A DNA stretch of 64,000 nt from NCBI RefSeq assembly GCF_014643455.1, contig NZ_BMJM01000005.1, forward strand, positions 124,001 to 188,000, given 5' to 3'. Of the stretch, positions 30,774 to 50,668 are shown piece by piece (positions within the stretch are counted from its first letter, which is position 1; the number at the start of each line of letters is the position of its first letter). The DNA is from Sandarakinorhabdus glacialis. GTDB lineage: Bacteria; Pseudomonadota; Alphaproteobacteria; Sphingomonadales; Sphingomonadaceae. A program made the position numbers and the translations under genes. The notes beneath the pieces were generated by a model. That model saw nothing but the letters and a program-made list of their open reading frames with translations, ran no database searches and had not been told where the DNA came from.

Positions 30774-30896
30774 GGTGCGGGCGTTTCATTTCGGGCCGAT
30801 TGACGACGGGACAGAAAGGCTTTCTTGCACGGGGTAACGATGCCGGGCCAATCCCCGGCGACAGGTGGCCGATCGGCCCCACCCCTTGGGAGAGAC

Positions 30897-33248
30897 ATGA
30901 TGCGCACGGTGTTGCTTGGCTCGGTTGCCGCTTTTGTGATGCTCGCCGGGCCTGCCGCGGCCCAGACGGCCGATACTGCTGTGGACGTTGCCACCGATGC
31001 GGGAACCGAGAGCGCCGAGATCATCGTGACCGCGCAAAAGCGGTCGGAGCGGTTGCAGGATGTTCCCGTCGCCGTGTCGGTAGTGTCTGGCGACCGGCTG
31101 GCGGCGCAGGGCGCGGTCAACCTCGAGGGCGCGCAGTACCTCGTGCCGTCGCTGAATTTCCGCAAGTCGGGGACGACGATCAACCAGTCGCTGTATCTGC
31201 GCGGCGTCGGCACCGCGACCTTCTCGATCGCCGGCGAGCCTTCGGTGTCGACGGTGCTCGACGGCGTCGTGCTGAGCCGGGCGGGCGAGGCCTTCTCGGA
31301 CCTGGTCGATATCGAGCGGATCGAAGTGCTGCGCGGGCCGCAGGGGACGCTGTTCGGCAAGAATTCGTCGGCGGGTGTCGTCAACATCGTGTCGAAGATG
31401 CCCGGGGAGGATTTCGGCGGCTTTGTCGAGGGTGGCTTCTTCTTCGACAACGGCAATGAATATCGCGTTCGTGGCGGCGTCGATGTGCCGATGGGCGACC
31501 GGCTGCGCGCGCGGGTGACGGGGTTCTACGGGGAATACGACGGCAATATCTTCAACGATGCGCCGGGCGTGAACCGCCGCGTCAACGGCTACCAGCGCTA
31601 TGGTGTCCGCGGCATCCTGCTCGCCGATGTCAGCGATACGGTGCAGTTGAAGCTCATCGGCGACTGGCGCAAAGCGAACGACGATTGTTGCGCCGAAGTC
31701 ATCGGCACGGCGCCGACGGGCGTCGGCTCGCTGGCACTGGCGGGCATCGGTTTTCAAGGCGACGAGACGCGGGTTATCCGCCAGAATTTGATCACCCGCA
31801 CCGAGGAGGAAAGCTGGGGTATCTCGCTGCAGGCCGATATCGAACTTGGCGACAATACCGTGACCTCGATCACCGCGTATCGCGACTACAAGAACCGCGA
31901 GATCCGCGACGGCGACTGGACGGCGGGGGCCTATGCGGGGCTCAACCAGCTCCATGATGACGGGCCGCAGACCGGGACGACGTTTAGCCAGGAACTGCGG
32001 CTGACGTCGCCGGCGGACCAGTTCTTTGCCTATGTGCTGGGGGCGTTTTACTCGAAGGCCGACAGCGAGCGGACATTCACGCGCAATGTCGTGGTGTGCA
32101 ACCCGGCGCCGACGCCGCTGGCGCTCGTGACGTGCGGATCGCCGGGCGCGCCGGCGACGACGTTCCCTTCGGCGACGGCGACGTTCGGCTCGGAACTGAC
32201 CAACGTGGCGGTGTTCGGGCAGTCGACGCTGAACTTCTCGGACCGGCTGCGCGGGATTTTTGGGCTGCGCTATACGGTCGACCAGAACAGCGTTTTCCAC
32301 AGTCGACGGACGGCGCTGACGGGGCCGGGCATCCAGCCCAACTTCGACCAGGGGGTGTTCTTTTCGGCGCGTCAGGGCTTGATCAACGGCGATCCAGCAC
32401 GATCGAACGGCCAGCCCTATGCCACGCAGACGACGCAGGATAATCTGTCGGGCAAGGTCGGCGCGCAGTTCGACGTAACCGACGACGTGATGGCGTACGG
32501 CACTTATGCGCGCGGCTACAAGGGCCCGGCGTACAACGTGTTTTTCAACCTGACCGCCAGCGGCACCAACGTCATCGAGGCGGAAACCGTCGACAGTTTC
32601 GAACTGGGCTTGAAGAACAGCCTGTTCGGCAACACGCTGGTCGTCAACGTGGCCGCCTATTACGCCAAGTACAAGAATTTCCAGGCGAATAACCCCGACT
32701 TGGTGGCTGGCGTGGTGGTAACGCGGTTCACCAATGCCGGCGATGTATCAACGCGCGGCGCCGAGCTCGATCTCAACTGGCGGCCGTTGGCGGACCTCAA
32801 CATCAGCGGCGGGGTCGCCTATACCGATGCCAAGGTCGATGAATTCCTGGCACCGCCTGGCGCTGCCGTCATTCCGGCCGGCACCCAGCTTGGTTATGCG
32901 CCGAAGTGGAAGGGCTCGCTTGGCGTCGATTACCGGATCCGCACCGGCGGTTTTGCCGACGTGACGCTCGGCGTGCAGGGTTCGACGCAATCGAGCCAGT
33001 TCTCGCTGTTCGATCCCAGCCCCGTCATCCGCGAGCAGGGCCGGATCGCGGCGTACAGCCTCGTCGACGCCCAGATCGGGCTGGTCGGCGAGGACGACCG
33101 CTACAAGCTGACCTTCGTCGTCAAGAACCTGTTCGATCAGAGCTTCGCGGCGGCGATCACCAACGGCGGGCCGGGCGGATCACTGCGCTACCTGATCCCG
33201 CGCGAGGCCGACCGTTATTTCGGAATCACTGGACGGGTCAACTTCTAG
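30897..33248 (+). CDS. TonB-dependent receptor
   Basis: This outer-membrane gated transporter has about 783 residues. A signal peptide ends at PAAAQ. The TonB box region precedes EIIVTAQKRSERLQDVPV, and the plug domain carries IERIEVLRGPQGTLFGKN and GVVNIVSK. A 22-strand barrel follows, ending in an aromatic residue (GITGRVNF). The start is one of two consecutive ATGs (30897 or 30900) after GGGAGA. The type is the large sphingomonad family that imports siderophores, sugars or aromatic oligomers. Its position next to oxidoreductases favours an organic nutrient over iron, but this is inference. Confidence 0.95.
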   Translation: MMRTVLLGSVAAFVMLAGPAAAQTADTAVDVATDAGTESAEIIVTAQKRSERLQDVPVAVSVVSGDRLAAQGAVNLEGAQYLVPSLNFRKSGTTINQSLYLRGVGTATFSIAGEPSVSTVLDGVVLSRAGEAFSDLVDIERIEVLRGPQGTLFGKNSSAGVVNIVSKMPGEDFGGFVEGGFFFDNGNEYRVRGGVDVPMGDRLRARVTGFYGEYDGNIFNDAPGVNRRVNGYQRYGVRGILLADVSDTVQLKLIGDWRKANDDCCAEVIGTAPTGVGSLALAGIGFQGDETRVIRQNLITRTEEESWGISLQADIELGDNTVTSITAYRDYKNREIRDGDWTAGAYAGLNQLHDDGPQTGTTFSQELRLTSPADQFFAYVLGAFYSKADSERTFTRNVVVCNPAPTPLALVTCGSPGAPATTFPSATATFGSELTNVAVFGQSTLNFSDRLRGIFGLRYTVDQNSVFHSRRTALTGPGIQPNFDQGVFFSARQGLINGDPARSNGQPYATQTTQDNLSGKVGAQFDVTDDVMAYGTYARGYKGPAYNVFFNLTASGTNVIEAETVDSFELGLKNSLFGNTLVVNVAAYYAKYKNFQANNPDLVAGVVVTRFTNAGDVSTRGAELDLNWRPLADLNISGGVAYTDAKVDEFLAPPGAAVIPAGTQLGYAPKWKGSLGVDYRIRTGGFADVTLGVQGSTQSSQFSLFDPSPVIREQGRIAAYSLVDAQIGLVGEDDRYKLTFVVKNLFDQSFAAAITNGGPGGSLRYLIPREADRYFGITGRVNF

Positions 33249-37072: not shown

Positions 37073-38254
37073 GTGACGCCGGCAATTCCTGTGCCGGACG
37101 GTGCGTCTACCATGTCGGCCGAGACAGCCGTCGCCCCGCGGCGACCGGTTTCGGCGGTGAAGCGACACCGTTTCGAGGTGCTCGACAGCTTGCGCGGCGT
37201 ATGCGCCATCCTGGTCGTGCTGTACCATTATCCCAACGGCAGCCACCTGACATCGAGCGAGTTCATTCGCGGCGGCTACCTGTTCGTCGATTTCTTCTTC
37301 GTGCTGTCGGGGTTCGTCATCGCGTACAGCTATGCCAACCGGATCACCGATCGCGAAAGCCTGCTGGTCTTTGTTGCGCGGCGGTTTTTCCGGCTGTGGC
37401 CGCTGCACCTGTTCATCCTCGCGCTGTATTTCCTGGTCGAAGTGTCGATGAAGCCGGCGGGTGCCGAATTGGGCGCGGTGAGCGGGCGAAACCTGCCCGA
37501 CCTGTGGCGCAGCCTGACGCTGACCAATGGCTTTGCGATGGACCATACTTCGCCTTGGAACATGCCTTCGTGGAGCATTTCGGCGGAATGGTGGACGTAT
37601 ATCGCATTTGCGCTGCTGGTCCTGGCCTTGCCGCGGCGGTTGTGGGCAGGGTTGGTGGCCATGGTCGCGGTCGCGCTGGCGGCGCTAATGGCGACGCACA
37701 GCTCGATGCGGATCACCTTCGACATGGGGCTGGTGCGATGCCTGGTCGGGTTCGGGCTGGGGGCGCTGATGGCGACCCAGTGGAAGTCGGTGTCGAACTG
37801 GCTCGGATCGGTCGGCACCCGTAAATTGGCCATCAGCGAAGTGCTGCTGGTCGTTGCCGTCACGGTTTTCGTGGCCAGCGCCCGCTTGTCGCACTGGTCG
37901 TTCCTGGCGCCCTTCCTGTTCAGCGCGGCGCTGGCGGTGTTCGCGATGGAAGCCGGGCCGGTATCGCGATTGATGCGCGGGCCGTTCTTCGTCCGCGCCG
38001 GTGTGCTGTCGTATTCGATCTATATGGTGCACCAGCTGATCATGGGGCGTTTGCGCAACGTCACCGACCTCGGGGGCAGGCTGGGATATACGCCTGACCC
38101 TGCGAACAAGTGGCATATGGATGCGATGGTGGTGTTGATGGTGGTGATGGTGTGGGTGGTGGCGGCGCTGACGTATCGTTTTGTCGAAATGCCGGGGCAG
38201 GCCATGGGATCGACTGTCATCGACCGATTCAGGCGGGTGTCGCGTAAGGCGTGA
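37073..38254 (+). CDS. Acyltransferase-3 (OafA/YrhL-like) membrane protein
   Basis: The protein of about 393 residues has some ten transmembrane helices. It opens with the AT3 signature RGVCAILVVLYH, in which Arg and His are ten residues apart, followed by GGYLFVDFFFVLSGFV, another family hallmark. PSWSISAEWWTY and the later SYSIYMVHQ complete the pattern. AT3 proteins move acyl groups from cytoplasmic donors to sugars or other acceptors outside. The start is uncertain (GTG 37073, or ATG 37112). It directly precedes the adenylation-carrier-acyltransferase fusion, which holds a second domain of the same family, so the two may work in series. Confidence 0.9.
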   Translation: MTPAIPVPDGASTMSAETAVAPRRPVSAVKRHRFEVLDSLRGVCAILVVLYHYPNGSHLTSSEFIRGGYLFVDFFFVLSGFVIAYSYANRITDRESLLVFVARRFFRLWPLHLFILALYFLVEVSMKPAGAELGAVSGRNLPDLWRSLTLTNGFAMDHTSPWNMPSWSISAEWWTYIAFALLVLALPRRLWAGLVAMVAVALAALMATHSSMRITFDMGLVRCLVGFGLGALMATQWKSVSNWLGSVGTRKLAISEVLLVVAVTVFVASARLSHWSFLAPFLFSAALAVFAMEAGPVSRLMRGPFFVRAGVLSYSIYMVHQLIMGRLRNVTDLGGRLGYTPDPANKWHMDAMVVLMVVMVWVVAALTYRFVEMPGQAMGSTVIDRFRRVSRKA

Positions 38255-38339
38255 ACTTCGGCCAGATGTCGGTTATGAGCGGGCCACGACACGGCGGCAC
38301 GCGGCGCCGCCGTGCAATCTTGTAGATGGACCATGATCG

Positions 38340-40967
38340 TTGGATGGGGCCGTGCTCGAAGACCTGGTGCTGACTGCCGATAACGGCGCCGACTGGGCAA
38401 GGCGGTTGGACCGGCATGCCGACCGGACGGCGTTGCTGACGGCGGATGGTGCCGCGCTGACGTATGGTGAGCTGCTGGCGCGGGCGGATGCGATGATCGC
38501 TGCGGCGGCGCCGGATGGGGAGCGGCGGCTGACGGCGCTACTGGTGCGCAACGATGTCGCCAGCATTGCGGCGTATCTGGGATGTTTGCGGGCCGGGAAC
38601 CCGGTGCTGTTGCTCGATGCCGATGGCGATGCCGGGCGGGTGCTGGCGACGTTTGCGCCGGGACTGACGATGTGGCCGTCGGATGGCCGGGTGGAGGTTG
38701 GCGGCGCGCCGGCGGCGCTGCATCCGGAACTGGCGCTGCTGCTGCCGACATCGGGATCGACGGGCAGCCCGAAGCTGGTGCGGCTTTCGGGGGCGGCGGT
38801 GGCGGCAAACGCAGCGGCGATCGTCCAGTATCTGGAGCTGGGGCCGGACGAGCGCGCGGTGACGACATTGCCGATCCACTACAGCTTTGGACTGTCTGTG
38901 CTCAACTCGCATCTGATGGCGGGCGCGTCGATCATCGTTACCGATGTGTCGATGACGCATCCCGATTTTGCCGGGATGATCGAGCGGTTGCGGCCGACGT
39001 CGCTATCGGGGGTGCCGTATAGTTTCGAGCTGCTCGAGCGCAGCGGGCTCGAGGCGCGGTTGCCCGATTCGATCCGCAGCCTGACGCAGGCGGGGGGGCG
39101 GTTGCCGGCGGACCGGGTGCGGGCGTTGGCGGCGCGCGGCGATACGCAGGGGTTCCGGTTTTTTGCGATGTACGGCCAGACCGAGGCGTCGCCGCGGATG
39201 GCGTGGCTGCCGCACGAACAGGCGGCGGAGTTTCCCGATTGCATCGGCCGGGCGATCCCGGGCGGGGCGTTTTCGCTGTTAGGGGACGATGGCGCGGTGA
39301 TCGAGGCGGCGGAAACACCGGGCGAGCTCGTCTATCGCGGGCCGAACGTGATGATGGGCTATGCTTTGGAACGCGGCGACCTGGCGCTAGCCAGCGGACC
39401 GGGCGAGCTGCGGACGGGCGATATCGCGGTGCGCAATTCGGCGGGGCTTTACCGGATCGTTGGACGGGCGAGCCGGTTTGCCAAGATTGCGGGCCTCAGG
39501 ATCGGGTTCGACGACATCGAGGCGTTGCTGCGGCAGGCCGGGCACGAGGCGGTCGTCAGCGGCGACGACACGCTGGTAACGGTTCATGTCGAGGCGGCTG
39601 TTACGGCCGAAGCGCGCGAGCGGATCGAGACGTTGACCGCCGAGCGCTGCCATATTCCCGAGGCGGCGATCGCCGTGGTGGCGGGGCCGGTGCCGCGGCT
39701 GGCGACGGGCAAGACCGATTATGCGGCGGTGCGGCGCGCCGGGACGGCGGCGGCGGCGGCGCGGCAGGCGGTAGCGGAGACGGGGGCGCATCCGATCCTG
39801 GTGGGTTATCGGCGGGCGTTCAACCGGTCGGCGCTGACCGGCGAGGCGAGTTTCCAGGCGCTTGGCGGCGACAGCATGTCGTATGTCAATGTCGCGGTGG
39901 CGATCGAGAAGTCGCTCGGCCAGTTGCCGGCGCAGTGGGAGGCGATGCCGATCAGCGCGCTGGTGGCGATGGCGCCCGAGCCGGGGACATCGCACGGCCG
40001 CCGGGGGACGCGGATCGGCACCGAGACGCTGGTGCGGCTGCTGGCGCTGGCGCTGGTCATCACCGGGCATGCGGCGCCGCTCGATTCGGAGTTCCTGCGC
40101 GGCGGCGCGGCGATCCTGTTCCTGATGGCGGGCTATAACCTGGCGCGGTTCCAGCGGTCGGCGTTCGAGGCCGGCCGGACGGGACCGGCGCTGACCGGAT
40201 CGCTCGAGCGAATGATTTTGCCCTACATGGTGGTGATGATTCCGCTGCTGCTGGCAAGCGGCGCGGCATGGTCGTGGGGCTGGTTCACACTGGTCAGCGT
40301 GTTCACGGTGGACGATGCCCAGAGAGGGCCGTTGTTTGCGTTCTGGTTCATCGAGACGGTGTTCCACGCGTTGTTGCTGACCATATTGGTATTCAAGGTG
40401 CCGCCGCTGCGCCGATTGAGCCGGGCGCGGCCGTTCGTGTTTTCGCTGGCTCTGCTGGCAGGCGCGTTGGCGGCGGAAATCCTCGTGCCGAGGTATGTGT
40501 TCGACGATGCCAACCCGGTGTCGCTAACCATCGATGCGCAATATTATCTCTATGTGCTCGGCTGGATGGCGCTGATTGCGCGCGGACGCTGGCAGGTGAT
40601 GACTGTGGTGGTCCTGGTCGTCGTGCTGTCGGGCTGGGATTATGGCCTTATGTCGGCGCGGCAGACCTGGCTGTCGCTGGCGATAGCGACGTTGCTGGCG
40701 GTGCCGTGGGTGCCTGTGCCCGACCGGGCGGCGGCGATCGTGCTGCGCATCGCGTCGGCGGGATATTTCATCTATATCAGCCACGTCATGATGGCACATT
40801 TGCTCAAATACCGGTTCGATCTCGCCGGGCAGACCGAGATCATGGTGCCGGCGCTGCTGGTGTTGAGCGTCGTTGCCGGGCTTGTCTTCGAACGCGCCTG
40901 GATGGCCGCCGGTGGGCTGATCTCGCGAAACTTTCGGCGATTGCGCCGCGAACGGGAACACAGTTGA
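38340..40967 (+). CDS. Fusion protein: adenylation domain - carrier domain - membrane acyltransferase-3
   Basis: This protein of about 875 residues joins three units. Residues 1-465 form a complete AMP-binding domain: TSGSTGSPK (137-145), YGQTE (278-282), RTGD (358-361), a [13 protein letters not shown] segment (375-387) and the catalytic lysine in GKTD (457-460). Residues about 480-550 form a carrier domain with GGDSMS, Ser512 being the phosphopantetheine site. Residues 560-875 form an AT3 membrane domain with Arg566-X10-His577 and about ten helices. IHYSFGL (about 179-185) resembles acyl-CoA synthetases more than amino-acid-activating domains and lacks their usual Asp, so the substrate may be a carboxylic acid. 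The start is unclear (TTG 38340 or GTG 38352). The stop overlaps the panB ATG (TGATG). Confidence 0.88.
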
Positions 40968-41818
40968 TGTCGACTACTTTCACGCTCGATACCGGTACCA
41001 GCCGGGCGCATCCCGTCCCGGAGCCGGTGCGGCGGTTGACGGTGCCGGGGATCGCCAAGCGCAAAGGTGGCGAGCCTGTCGTCATGCTCACCGCCTACAC
41101 GGCGCGGATGGCGCAGTTGCTCGACAAGCATTGCGACATGTTGCTGGTCGGCGATTCGCTCGGGCAGGTCATCTATGGCCTCGATACGACGGTGAAGGTC
41201 ACGCTCGAGATGATGATCGCCCACGGCGCGGCGGTGGTGCGCGGGTCGTATCATTCGGTCGTCGTCGTCGACATGCCGTTCGGCAGTTACGAAGCGTCGC
41301 CGCAGCAGGCGTTCGAGAATGCCGCACGGGTAATGAAGGAAACCGGCGCGGCGGGGGTGAAGCTGGAGGGCGGCACGGCGATGGCCGAGACGATCAACTT
41401 CCTGTCGCGGCGCGGAATTCCAGTCGTGGCGCACGTCGGCCTGACCCCGCAGGCGGTCAATGCGTTGGGCGGTTACGGGGCCCGTGGTCGCAGCGCCGAA
41501 GAGGCCGCGACCATCCTTGCCGATGCGGAAGCGGTGGCGGCGGCGGGGGCGTTCGCGCTGGTGGTCGAGGGCGTCGTCGAGCCGCTGGCACGGCGTATCA
41601 CCGAGACGGTCAAATGCCCGACGATCGGCATCGGTGCGTCGGCGGCGTGCGATGGCCAGGTGCTGGTGGTCGACGACATGCTCGGCATGTTCGAGCGGGT
41701 GCCGCGCTTCGTCGAGCGCTTCGACGACCTCGCGGTGCGGATCGATACGGCGGCGGCGACCTTTGCAGCGGCGGTGCGCGAGCGGCGGTTCCCGACGGAG
41801 AAACAACTTTATCTCTGA
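40967..41818 (+). CDS. panB: 3-methyl-2-oxobutanoate hydroxymethyltransferase
   Basis: It makes ketopantoate, the first committed step to pantothenate, CoA and the phosphopantetheine arm of carrier proteins. The 283-residue protein has [13 protein letters not shown] (metal and substrate site), [25 protein letters not shown] and the catalytic Glu in [10 protein letters not shown]. Its ATG shares a base with the stop of the adenylation-carrier-acyltransferase gene, so translation is coupled. panC is not in the window. The coupling to a carrier-protein gene may be meaningful or accidental. Confidence 0.95.
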
Positions 41819-46243: not shown

Positions 46244-46303
46244 CCGAATTCGGCTAAACCTCACAAAGTGTTAAGATGTGGGCACGTCTGATTGGGGTTG
46301 GTA

Positions 46304-49300
46304 ATGATTGTTGCGGTCCAGAAACATCGGGCCTCCAGGCCGTCGTCCGTTCTGTACCGGCGCATCAAGGTCGGCCTGTCGGTCACCGGATTGATGCTGG
46401 CGGGAACGGCGCTGGCACCGGCAAGTGCCGAAGTCCTCAATTTGAACGGCATATCGCCGGCCCGCAGCACGGTCGCCGGCGCGACTGAAATCACGAACGG
46501 CATATTGCGGCTGACGCCAGCGGTCGGAGGCGTGACCATCGATGCCGCTTTGAACGACCGCCTCGGCGTGTTTGCGCTCACCAAACTCGGCCAGCATTCG
46601 CTTACGCTGAATGGATCGGGGCTTAATACCTATTCGGGCGCAACGACCATCAGCGATGGCGCGGTGTTTGCGGGCAATGTCAATGTCCTGTCACCGAACT
46701 CGGTCGTGACGCTGGCAGCCCCCGGCGTGCTCGATCTTCGCGGATACCGCCAGGCTGTTGCCGGATTGGCCGGCTTTGGCATCGTTCGCAGTAGCACGGC
46801 GACGACAAGCCTGCTGACGGTGGGGGCTGCCGGGACGTATAATTACCGCGGCGTCATCGAGGGCAATCTGCGCCTGGTCAAGACCGGTGCGGACCAGCAA
46901 AGTCTCGGAGGGTCCAATACCTATACCGGCGGTACCGAGCTTCGGTCAGGTATTCTTCGCTTCACGCGGGACGACTCGCTGGGCACCGGCGCGATCGACG
47001 TGACTGGGGCGGCGGTGTTGCTGCCGGCCATCATGGGTCGCCGCATTGCCAATGATTTCAGCCTTGGCGGCGATCTGGAGGTGTCAGGCGCGTCGATGGA
47101 GCTGGCCGGCCGAATTTCGGGAACCGGGCGCCTCATCAAGACTACGGTGAGCAACCTGACGCTTTCGAGCGGAGCGAACAGTTTTTCCGGCGGCGTCGAT
47201 CTCCAGGACGGACAGCTTGTCATCGCGACGGGCTCATTGGGTAGTGGCGATCTCGTCGTCTCGGCAGGCCAGGCGTCGATGTCGACCGTGGGCAATCTGT
47301 CGGCAGTGCTGCGCAACCGGGTCGTGCTCCTCGGCGGTCTCAACTTCGAGCTGCTCGATGCGGCCAGCGTGCTCGAGCTCTCGGGCCCGATCTCGGGTGG
47401 CGGCTTCCTGTACATGAAGCAGGGTCCGGGTACTTTGCTCCTGACCGGCGACAACGGCTTTACCGGGCACTTTTCACTCGCAACCGGCACCCTTGGTCTC
47501 GGCACCAGTACGGCGGCCGGATTTGGAATTCTTAGCACTGGTGGCGGTGCAGGCATCGCAGCTTATGCTGACAACCTCGTTGTCGCGAACAGGATCCATC
47601 TTGGCCCGGCGTTGCGGATCGACACGCGCGGATATGACCTGACGTTGACGGGAGCCATCATCAACAACACCAATGTTGCCGGCGGCTTCCAGAAGCTCGG
47701 CGACGGCAATCTGACGCTGACCGGGGTAAGCAGCTTTACCGGACCGGCGACGATCATCACCGGCCAGTTGACCATGAATGGCAGCATAACCAGCGACGCC
47801 GCAATCGGCAGCGGCGCTATTCTCGCAGGCTCGGGCTCGATCGGCGGCGTCGTGACCGTTGCCGACGGCGCGAGGATTGCGCCGGGTACGAGTGCCGGGA
47901 CGCTGACGCTTGGCAGCCTGGTGCTGGGTGCCGGCTCGGTGCTCGATTTCGAGTTGAAGACGGCCGGCGCGATCGGTGGCGGGATCAACGATTTGATCGC
48001 CGTGAACAATAGCCTGACGCTCGACGGCACGATCAATGTCGTCGGCTTGCCGGGTTTCGATGTCGGGACTTTTCGCGTCATCAACTATGGCGGCGCGCTG
48101 ACCAACAATGGCCTTGATGCCGGCACGGTACCGGTCGGCTTCAACTTCACGATCGATACGTCTGTCCAGGGCCAGGTCAATCTGCTCGTCGGCTTCGCGG
48201 GCGTCCGGTATTGGGACGGTGCCGATGTCGTCGGCGATGGCGTCATCGACGGCGGCAACGGCACCTGGGCGTCGGGGGCGACCAACTGGACCAATGTCGA
48301 TGGCTCGGCGAACCTGTCGTGGGGCAATACCACCGGGATCTTCGCAGGCGCGCCCGGCACGGTTGCCGTGGCTGGTGTTCAGGGTTTCACCGCATTGAGC
48401 TTCCAGACGGCTGGCTATGTCCTGAACGGCGGCGAGCTGGCGATCAATGGCGGTACGCTCGAGACAGCGAATACCGGCACGACGACGATTAACAGCGTGG
48501 TGTCCGGGAGCAACGGCCTGACCAAGACGGGTGCCGGGTCCCTCGTGCTGGACGGCGCCAACACATATGCTGGCGGAACGACACTTGCACAGGGCACTAT
48601 TACCGCCGCGAGCAACACCGCGCTCGGCGCCGGCGCATTGACGATGGCATCGGGCACGACGCTGGCCTCGGCGGGCGCCAGCCGCAGCCTTGCAAACAAC
48701 ATCGTCGCTACGGGCAACGACATGGTCCGGGCCGGCACAGTTGCGACCGACGTGCTCACGCTGGCGGGAACGATTTCGGGGAGCGGTTCGATCACGCAGG
48801 TCGGGCCGGGCAATCTGGTGCTGACCGGCAACAACAGCTTCGGCCGGCTCGGTATTGCCGCCGGTATGGTGACTATCGGCACCAACACCTCGGCAGGCAC
48901 TGGTCCGATCGCGATTGACAATGGCGGCACGCTTGCCGCCGGCGTTACAGGTTTGGCGCTCAACAATGCGATCCAGGTCGCCACCTCGGGCGTCGTCAAC
49001 GTCGGCAGCGGCGCGTTGACCCTGGGCGGTACCATGGGCGGCGCAGGGAATATCACCAAAACCGGCACTGGCGTTCTCAACCTGACTGCGGTCAGCAGCT
49101 TGACGGGTGCCACGACGGTATCGGCGGGGCGGCTGAACATCATCGGGTCTATCGCGCAGTCGGCGACGACGGTGCAAAGCGGCGCAACCCTGGCCGGCAC
49201 CGGCACGGTCGGCGCGCTGACGGCACAGTCGGGTTCGGCGATATCGCCCGGCGCGGCGGTCGGCAGCGTCGGCACGCTCAACGTCAACGGCGCGGTTTCA

Positions 49301-50668
49301 CTGCTGGCGGGCTCGACCTTCATCGTCGACTATGGCCCGGCCTCGGTCGACCGTCTCACGGCGACGGGTCCCGCATCGATCGCCGGCAACATTTCGGTGG
49401 TGCCCGCGGCTGCGGGTCGCTTCGGCGAAACCATCATCTTGTCGTCGAGCGCACGAACCGGCACATTTGCCAATGACGCGTCGGTTGCCAGCTTGTTCGG
49501 CCCGGCGATCACCTCGAAGCTGCTTTATACCTCAACTTCGGTTGTGCTCAGCCTCACGCCGACGTCGCTCGCGTCGCTCGGCAATTTGACCGGCAACCCG
49601 TTGCAGGTCGCGCTGGCGTTCGATCGCGCTGTGACGACCGGATATAATCCGTCGCCCTACTTCGCGCTTTTCACCCAGGGTGCGAATTTTTCGACCGCGC
49701 TCAGCCAGCTGTCGGGCGAGCTTCATTCGGCCGAACGCCGGGTGCTGCTCGAGGATAGCCGCGTCGTTCGCGAGACGGCCTGGGATCGCATGAATGCCGG
49801 GTTGAGCGCCATCGCCGGGGCCCAGTCGGTAACCGCCGACGACGGCGACCTGGCAACGACGGTCTGGCTGCGTGCCGCGGGGTCCTGGGGCCAGGCCGAT
49901 GCCGACGGCGTCGGCAGTGCGTTCGAGACCGAGCAGCGCGGCGTGCTGACCGGCATGGATTTCGCGACGAACGGCTTCAAGGCAGGCGCGATGTTCTATT
50001 ATCTCGAGACCGACATAGAATTTGCCACGCTGGGCAAATCGACCGTCGAGTCGACGGGTGGCGCCATCTATGCCGGCTACCGCCAGCCAGGCGCGGGTTT
50101 CGCGGTCGGCCTTGGCGGATCGATGGCGGGCAACCGCGCCGAAGGTGTGCGTTCGATCACCATTCCGGGTCTGGCGCAAACGCTGACCAGCCGCGTCAGC
50201 GGCACGACCTACCAGATCTTCGGTGAAGTTGCCTTCGACCTGCTGGCAGCGGAAAACAGCCGGATCGAGCCGTTCGGCCGTGTCGCCCATGCCCAGGTTA
50301 AGTCGAATGCCTTGACCGAGGCTGGCGGTATGGCTGCCCGGCATATCCCCGGCCAGCGCAACGAGATGACATGGGTCGATGTGGGTCTGCGCGGCGGCAT
50401 CACGGCGGGGGAGGTGGATTTCACCGGCTCTGCGGCGTGGCACCGCACTTCGGGCGATCGCAACGGCATCACCTACAGCTCGCTGGGTGGGCTGAACACC
50501 CAGTCGTTCATCCGCGCCGTTGAACTCGATCGCGATGCCGTGGCCCTCGAAGCCCAGGCCAATTACAGCATCACCCCGATGATCAAGATCGGCGCCGGCT
50601 ATAGCGGCATCATCGGGTCCAACAACCAGGACCATGGTGCGCGGGCGACCCTGTCGTTCGGCTTCTAG
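46304..50668 (+). CDS. Autotransporter with beta-helical passenger (type V secretion)
   Basis: The protein of about 1454 residues has a long, basic signal peptide (RRIKVGLSVTGLMLAG, ending PASA). A passenger of roughly 1100 residues follows, built of repeats such as GLTKTGAGSLVLDGANTYAG and NITKTGTGVLNLTAVSSLTG, typical of PATR beta-helices. The last 270 residues form a 12-strand autotransporter barrel starting at TTVWLRAAGSWGQ and ending with Phe (RATLSFGF). No protease or lipase motif is obvious, so an adhesin or surface-display role is likely. The ATG at 46304 has GGGG about eight bases upstream; a TTG at 46292 is also in frame. Confidence 0.93.
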   Translation: MIVAVQKHRASRPSSVLYRRIKVGLSVTGLMLAGTALAPASAEVLNLNGISPARSTVAGATEITNGILRLTPAVGGVTIDAALNDRLGVFALTKLGQHSLTLNGSGLNTYSGATTISDGAVFAGNVNVLSPNSVVTLAAPGVLDLRGYRQAVAGLAGFGIVRSSTATTSLLTVGAAGTYNYRGVIEGNLRLVKTGADQQSLGGSNTYTGGTELRSGILRFTRDDSLGTGAIDVTGAAVLLPAIMGRRIANDFSLGGDLEVSGASMELAGRISGTGRLIKTTVSNLTLSSGANSFSGGVDLQDGQLVIATGSLGSGDLVVSAGQASMSTVGNLSAVLRNRVVLLGGLNFELLDAASVLELSGPISGGGFLYMKQGPGTLLLTGDNGFTGHFSLATGTLGLGTSTAAGFGILSTGGGAGIAAYADNLVVANRIHLGPALRIDTRGYDLTLTGAIINNTNVAGGFQKLGDGNLTLTGVSSFTGPATIITGQLTMNGSITSDAAIGSGAILAGSGSIGGVVTVADGARIAPGTSAGTLTLGSLVLGAGSVLDFELKTAGAIGGGINDLIAVNNSLTLDGTINVVGLPGFDVGTFRVINYGGALTNNGLDAGTVPVGFNFTIDTSVQGQVNLLVGFAGVRYWDGADVVGDGVIDGGNGTWASGATNWTNVDGSANLSWGNTTGIFAGAPGTVAVAGVQGFTALSFQTAGYVLNGGELAINGGTLETANTGTTTINSVVSGSNGLTKTGAGSLVLDGANTYAGGTTLAQGTITAASNTALGAGALTMASGTTLASAGASRSLANNIVATGNDMVRAGTVATDVLTLAGTISGSGSITQVGPGNLVLTGNNSFGRLGIAAGMVTIGTNTSAGTGPIAIDNGGTLAAGVTGLALNNAIQVATSGVVNVGSGALTLGGTMGGAGNITKTGTGVLNLTAVSSLTGATTVSAGRLNIIGSIAQSATTVQSGATLAGTGTVGALTAQSGSAISPGAAVGSVGTLNVNGAVSLLAGSTFIVDYGPASVDRLTATGPASIAGNISVVPAAAGRFGETIILSSSARTGTFANDASVASLFGPAITSKLLYTSTSVVLSLTPTSLASLGNLTGNPLQVALAFDRAVTTGYNPSPYFALFTQGANFSTALSQLSGELHSAERRVLLEDSRVVRETAWDRMNAGLSAIAGAQSVTADDGDLATTVWLRAAGSWGQADADGVGSAFETEQRGVLTGMDFATNGFKAGAMFYYLETDIEFATLGKSTVESTGGAIYAGYRQPGAGFAVGLGGSMAGNRAEGVRSITIPGLAQTLTSRVSGTTYQIFGEVAFDLLAAENSRIEPFGRVAHAQVKSNALTEAGGMAARHIPGQRNEMTWVDVGLRGGITAGEVDFTGSAAWHRTSGDRNGITYSSLGGLNTQSFIRAVELDRDAVALEAQANYSITPMIKIGAGYSGIIGSNNQDHGARATLSFGF

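Follow-up and report, generated by a model that had tools for sequence, protein, structure and literature searches.

Proteins of the acyltransferase-3 (AT3) type modify bacterial surfaces very widely. The analysis presented here concerns 64,000 nucleotides of Sandarakinorhabdus glacialis DNA (contig NZ_BMJM01000005.1, positions 124,001 to 188,000 of the forward strand), this whole stretch being referred to below as the window, and within it a gene that encodes an adenylation, a carrier and an AT3 domain in a single polypeptide, i.e., the A-T-AT3 gene. This gene occupies 38340..40967 (+) as an intact frame of 875 residues, for which a TTG codon is the earliest possible start. All on the same strand, the protein comprises (i) the adenylation domain, residues 1-465 (38340..39734; PF00501, 2.5e-43), with the motifs TSGSTGSPK, YGQTE, RTGD and GKTD and the A10 lysine Lys458 (39711..39713), (ii) the carrier (thiolation) domain, residues 466-555 (39735..40004), with the serine Ser512 (39873..39875), which begins helix 512-526 in the structure model, and (iii) the AT3 membrane domain, also called TmAT, residues 556-875 (40005..40964; PF01757), with Arg566 (40035..40037) and His577 (40068..40070) of the R-X10-H motif. 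Upstream lies a companion AT3 gene of the ordinary type, 393 residues long (37073..38254, +; PF01757, 1.1e-25), with Arg41 and His52 as its R-X10-H and Arg104 and Arg107 as its RxxR motif. Downstream follows panB (40967..41818, +; Pfam 1.1e-101), whose ATG (40967-40969) overlaps the TGA of the A-T-AT3 gene (40965-40967) by one A (TGATG). A preliminary description of this DNA had listed the gene, its domain order and the four catalytic residues, all of which were recovered where it had placed them, while the upstream AT3 gene and the start of panB within the stop codon proved real by Pfam and by the sequence itself.

A three-domain family and its variants

Loci of the same kind were gathered by a scan of GTDB genome contigs, for which at least 80 loci were listed and to which related genomes were added; genes at these loci were called by codon composition, a procedure with which some spurious antisense frames persist. 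Conservation was counted over the 80 frames of at least 800 residues, the window's included and 15 shorter ones left out, where Lys458 and Ser512 are each present in 80/80, Arg566 in 78/80 and His577 in 79/80. None of these 80 has a broken carrier serine or adenylation lysine, and the catalytic residues of the three domains are kept together. The same frame is encountered in rhizobia, actinobacteria, roseobacters, sphingomonads, gammaproteobacteria and one flavobacterium, and, since it recurs across these groups, a misassembly joining two genes is excluded. Taken as sequences, the A-T-AT3 proteins are a real, conserved family. In the open-access literature, no paper on the adenylation-carrier-AT3 architecture was found, and plasmid records either label the relatives “AMP-binding protein” or leave them unannotated (among the 40 of 88 records listed), one S. 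meliloti record holding an ortholog with 78% identity to that of S. medicae; the family is probably previously unstudied, with a Dlt-like logic in one chain, an AT3 exit and, probably, feeding by its own carrier.

The likeness to the Dlt system (DltA, DltC, DltB, DltD) lies in the succession of activation, carriage on a phosphopantetheine carrier and transfer across the membrane, and the idea of such a logic within one chain, put forward in the preliminary description, is strengthened by the co-conservation of all catalytic residues. This likeness extends to some relatives. The two rows devoid of Arg566, namely L064 (Massilia) and L095 (Photobacterium), carry an SGNH/GDSL domain in place of AT3 (3.9e-12 and 1.8e-9, respectively) and, by these domain matches, are not decayed but domain-swapped. 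Their adenylation-carrier-SGNH proteins pair with an MBOAT-family gene (L064:5986-10138 and L095:5986-10059), which in L064 is directly downstream (9.3e-23) and in L095 corresponds to the downstream gene, assigned only by its membership of the same BLAST cluster as the L064 MBOAT; each of the two is, from its predicted domains, a Dlt-like set assembled from other parts. Split versions exist as well, i.e., an adenylation-carrier gene plus an AT3 gene (L122, L143) or an adenylation gene plus a carrier-bearing gene (L111). The occurrence of joined, split and swapped versions argues for a functional interplay of the parts. The differences from Dlt are nonetheless clear: the window system is one polypeptide and has AT3 instead of MBOAT, an SGNH domain together with an MBOAT-family neighbour, in the manner of DltB and DltD, is restricted to L064 and L095, and the position expected, by alignment, to hold the amino-acid aspartate of a D-alanine-type adenylation domain is Ser or Cys in 80/80 rows.

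Activation, carriage and the acyl donor

Regarding the substrate, the aspartate that binds the amino group in VinN and in the prolyl-carrier ligase aligns with residue 182 of the window protein, which is Ser in 45/80 and Cys in 35/80 rows and the amino-acid Asp in none; this argues against an alpha-amino acid and upholds the earlier view that the adenylation pocket is not of the amino-acid type. The remaining pocket residues hardly vary across the two halves of the family (defined by the tree described further below), with the pattern [S/C]YSGTAMARK in the usual numbering of the code positions, and they are largely common to stand-alone adenylation genes too. Naming the acid from the pocket was consequently rejected, as the pattern does not discriminate between the halves or from stand-alone genes. 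Among the latter, those of the L010-L014 cassettes have most pocket residues in common with the window protein, although they differ by a separate acyl carrier protein (ACP), a LuxE-type partner and no AT3 domain; in these same-genus genomes, the cassette consists of the stand-alone adenylation gene, a LuxE-type acyl-protein synthetase and a short-chain dehydrogenase/reductase, a carrier gene of 76-88 residues being called in L011-L014, not in L010. When the structure model was searched with Foldseek, the best adenylation matches were MenE, PltF, MatB and HitB. Among the 25 of 80 NCBIfam families listed, the closest was TIGR03098, the exosortase-A-associated acyl-CoA ligase (5.9e-42, 143.8 bits against a cut-off of 592), and no fitting model was present among those 25. 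In L135, the closest ortholog (57% identity), a gene for a sulfate/citrate-class transporter lies about 30 bp downstream on the same strand (L135:6693-8129); such a gene was not seen beside other A-T-AT3 loci, and citrate as the donor acid is only a hint.

As for the carrier, the window's domain submitted as a separate query matched PP-binding at 0.0014 (19.3 bits, under the cut-off of 20.8), and the corresponding regions of the family, taken from alignment A1 (54 of its 75 rows), gave a PP-binding match at E<=1 in 54/54, the best at 4.1e-11. A profile of the family carriers matched peptidyl carrier proteins (PCPs) and ACPs among solved structures (best 1.4e-9), the closest chains being PCPs of non-ribosomal peptide synthetases (NRPSs). 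With Ser512 kept in 80/80 rows, the predicted domain is a carrier with a phosphopantetheine serine.

The AT3 domain was compared, over 64 of the 75 A1 rows (near copies omitted), with AT3 frames from the window's relatives, i.e., 29 control rows representing 21 distinct genes after removal of one control that was itself A-T-AT3. R566, H577, G598, W669, G741, Y812 and H815 are kept in 63-64/64 family and 28-29/29 control rows. The R-X10-H of the first transmembrane helix (TMH1) is found in 64/64, as are G598 and G741, and Y812 is found in 63/64 of the joint alignment; these three correspond to the TMH2 glycine, TMH6 glycine and TMH9 tyrosine of PMC12423673, an equivalence established by our own mapping. 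PF01757 matched relatives L084, L093 and L100 at 5.5e-21 to 2.7e-30 and, in a six-frame search of the window's own genome, the window gene reached 33.6 bits, above the cut-off of 31 that the whole protein just missed. Modelled alone, the domain had a mean predicted local distance difference test score (pLDDT) of 93.5 and a predicted template modelling score (pTM) of 0.90. Against the PDB, Foldseek ranked HGSNAT first, weakly so (E 0.19, probability 0.94, TM 0.42), with no match reaching E 0.001, so that the predicted resemblance to HGSNAT is supporting, not proof. The window family as such resembles the AT3 / TmAT proteins OafA, OafB, OatA and HGSNAT in its R-X10-H, the other hallmarks and the predicted transmembrane domain.

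What sets it apart, besides the built-in adenylation and carrier domains, is the loss of the TMH3 RxxR motif, both arginines of which occur in 0/64 family AT3 rows versus 29/29 ordinary AT3 controls, a difference that goes beyond the preliminary description. PMC7448272 gives R/K-X10-H in TMH1 and RxxR in TMH3 as essential; according to PMC7448272, PMC9833829 and PMC12423673, RxxR is essential in ordinary AT3 and, by simulation, is placed at the 3'-phosphate of coenzyme A (CoA). Since carrier-bound phosphopantetheine is without that 3'-phosphate, loss of RxxR alone would be expected of a carrier-fed AT3, and the loss observed favours transfer from the carrier over free acyl-CoA. Transfer without free acyl-CoA, as initially proposed, thus gains support from the RxxR loss together with the SGNH/MBOAT variants sharing the activate-carry part. 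In the review PMC9558356, AT3-only, AT3-SGNH and AT3-racemase architectures are named and acyl-CoA, not ACP, is argued to be the AT3 donor; a natural AT3 that brings along its own adenylation and carrier domains and is devoid of the motif for the 3'-phosphate of CoA would contradict that view directly.

The window protein is thus probably a self-loading transmembrane acyltransferase, fed by its carrier, with an acceptor on the outer face of the membrane and no need for free acyl-CoA. What we infer are the individual chemical steps, which way the group is transferred and what accepts it, as follows: the adenylation domain would convert a carboxylic acid other than an alpha-amino acid to an acyl-AMP, the acyl group would pass to the phosphopantetheine arm that the fused carrier bears on Ser512, this arm would feed it straight into the AT3 pore, and the pore would hand it to the acceptor on the outer face. 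Such a carrier-fed AT3 would be a clean system for testing acyl entry into the pore.

Several observations weigh against this reading. At the level of detection, PF01757 matches the whole window protein just under its cut-off (2.6e-7, 30.4 bits against 31), the carrier was unreported at E<=0.01 in the whole-protein Pfam scan, and only one phosphopantetheinyl transferase, of the ACPS family, was found in the own genome. The gene is also patchy, being found in 16/397 genomes of the taxonomic family, the own genome included. The RxxR argument itself is not clean, because in the simulation of PMC9833829 the 3'-phosphate is also contacted by Arg14 of OafB, the residue corresponding to Arg566, which the family keeps. 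A relaxed R..R within about five positions, in another register, is still present in 12/64 rows, and the contrast with the controls may be overstated, as these were collected with a profile seeded by the RxxR-bearing companion AT3 (a frame was obtained in 20/30 loci). Lastly, the whole-protein model (mean pLDDT 89.7, pTM 0.63) indicates good domains with an uncertain placement of the carrier relative to the pore.

The sister half and iron

In a quick tree of the 80 rows, rooted at midpoint, the family separates into sides of 63 and 17 rows, with a support of 90 each. The larger side comprises rhizobia, roseobacters, actinobacteria and a few others, while the smaller side comprises the window, other sphingomonads, Methylococcaceae, Massilia, Photobacterium, Caulobacteraceae, some rhodobacters and Flavobacteriaceae; the end branch of the window is long (1.42) and its exact position unsure. 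All seven sphingomonad rows are on the 17-row side, and the rows with iron boxes, described hereafter, on the 63-row or sister side.

The association of the sister half with iron, which the preliminary description missed, appears in gene neighbourhoods and in promoters. Within the fetched flanks of 85 loci, FbpB-like genes were found in 27/85 and FbpA-like genes in 26/85; in L049 and L069, fbpA, fbpB, fbpC and the A-T-AT3 gene abut or overlap by 4 bases, and the closest match of the L049 binding protein is a solved ferric-iron ABC (ATP-binding cassette) binding protein (2e-128), followed by YfuA and SfuA. In actinobacteria, an IdeR/DtxR box, according to the consensus of PMC8464063, precedes either fbpA or the A-T-AT3 gene in 20/35 loci at <=5 mismatches and 15/35 at <=4, against 5/200 and 3/200 control genes, the three control matches at <=4 being divergent genes that use the same box. 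In rhizobia, the iron-responsive operator (IRO) box of RirA, according to the consensus of PMC6386902, is at the promoter of 20/25 genes against 16/215 other genes, with one of the 25, the plain acyl-CoA ligase gene L096:8617, scored as a miss. Hold-out genomes behaved likewise. In Rhizobiaceae fetched afterwards, the IRO box was found for 5/9 genes against 45/900 random windows, and in Mycobacteriaceae fbpA was upstream in 13/18 new loci, of which 9/13 had a box at <=5 and 5/13 at <=4 mismatches, compared with 23/1000 and 14/1000 random windows, a background that may itself include genuine boxes. All these counts refer to related sequences, not independent events, and box-free loci are present in both actinobacteria and rhizobia. 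Irr-like matches were weak (4 mismatches), and a search for Fur-like boxes in the window and in gammaproteobacterial and other loci returned nothing convincing. The mycobacterial loci L225 and L226 hold a different fbpA (about 38% identity to that of L049) at the same upstream position, perhaps a transporter replacement.

Judging from promoters and neighbours, the sister half looks iron-regulated, by IdeR/DtxR in actinobacteria and RirA in rhizobia, and is probably part of iron acquisition, the same reaction probably serving that end in these two groups. The link came as a surprise: a part in iron handling is suggested, by two regulators unrelated to each other and by a ferric importer, for proteins whose only annotation in the plasmid records listed is “AMP-binding protein.” The promoter boxes with the adjoining importer give hints of an undescribed way of gathering iron in many of these relatives from soil bacteria. 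In a more specific version, which is conceivable though doubtful, rhizobia and actinobacteria would possess a one-protein iron-gathering synthase that takes a carboxylic or hydroxy acid through activation and carriage and attaches it to an outer-face acceptor. Synthesis and export of an iron-binding compound or surface would then coincide in a single step, its Fe3+ going to FbpA, and the window protein would represent a branch of this carrier-fed AT3 machinery that is not concerned with iron; were this true, a separate exporter and a classical siderophore cluster would be unnecessary. An activate-carry-transfer sequence under iron control has a precedent in the loading of the mycobactin lipid tail by MbtM, MbtL and MbtK, which differs by its separate soluble proteins and GNAT-type transferase.

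The iron boxes and FbpAB association, along with the NRPS PCPs that come closest to the carrier profile, also suit another explanation, namely that A-T-AT3 is a one-module NRPS-like synthase whose product is a small metabolite (in the iron-regulated half, this would be a chelator), with AT3 as a cytoplasmic-side release domain of the MdmB/CarE type; AT3s acylating small molecules are mentioned in PMC9558356. We nevertheless regard it as unlikely, given that the hallmarks of a transmembrane-fold AT3 are kept, that Pfam detected no condensation domain in the window protein and that no exporter stood out among the scanned neighbours.

No such iron association was met in the window organism. No E. 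coli-like Fur half-palindrome was found in the window at <=3 mismatches, a motif that may not be that of sphingomonad Fur, and no FbpA match was found in the own genome in a search made without positive control.

Acceptor and neighbouring genes

For the window's half of the tree, our best guess from sequence is acylation of a surface glycan, and the likeliest acceptor in the window organism would be a surface sugar or lipid. Two genes downstream of the A-T-AT3 gene of L035 is a GT2/GtrA gene, and the adenylation-carrier gene of L109 adjoins a glycosyltransferase gene. In the 15 other sphingomonad stretches, a companion-type AT3 occurs in 4/15, an MBOAT in 2/15 and an SGNH in 1/15. The pairing with a second AT3 gene noticed in the window holds in those four and was not seen in the remaining 11/15. 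Coupling to panB, likewise singled out at first, is not conserved, panB being beside the relatives in 0/15 of these stretches (one of which, L145, is only 3.9 kb long), and it was rejected as a functional link on that count.

The companion AT3, which adjoins in the window with an intact RxxR and has counterparts in the four stretches, could be taken to mean that the adenylation-carrier part feeds other enzymes such as this one, the fused AT3 domain being now a membrane anchor whose RxxR was lost by decay. This is improbable: most relatives are without a companion AT3, and over the 64 rows there is no or almost no variation at the Arg, His, Gly, Trp and Tyr hallmarks, unlike what decay would leave. 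A chance fusion of an AT3 that uses acyl-CoA in the ordinary way with a ligase that makes acyl-CoA locally can draw on the acyl-CoA ligases among the best NCBIfam and PDB matches of the adenylation part, and is dismissed as very improbable given the carrier serine in 80/80 rows, the carrier domain in 54/54 members given and the lost RxxR.

Other genes recurring near A-T-AT3 were set aside as local neighbours, i.e., gatA in four sphingomonad stretches, metH/PAC2 in Nocardia, GGDEF and ABC-F genes in Ensifer, and YcaO/TfuA in three Rhizobium loci. In the latter (L038, L040, L050), the A-T-AT3 gene is followed, without change of strand, by consecutive Cyclase/AAA, YcaO and TfuA genes (Pfam for L038 only). 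In a genome of the window's genus (L119:3-6039), MBOAT, GDSL/SGNH and AT3 genes and a second, SGNH-like frame recognised by eye all lie within about 9 kb of the A-T-AT3 gene. Elsewhere in the window, an 807-residue frame at 30825-33248 (+) is TonB-dependent receptor-like, by eye only, and an autotransporter of 1458 residues with PATR repeats is encoded at 46292-50668 (+).

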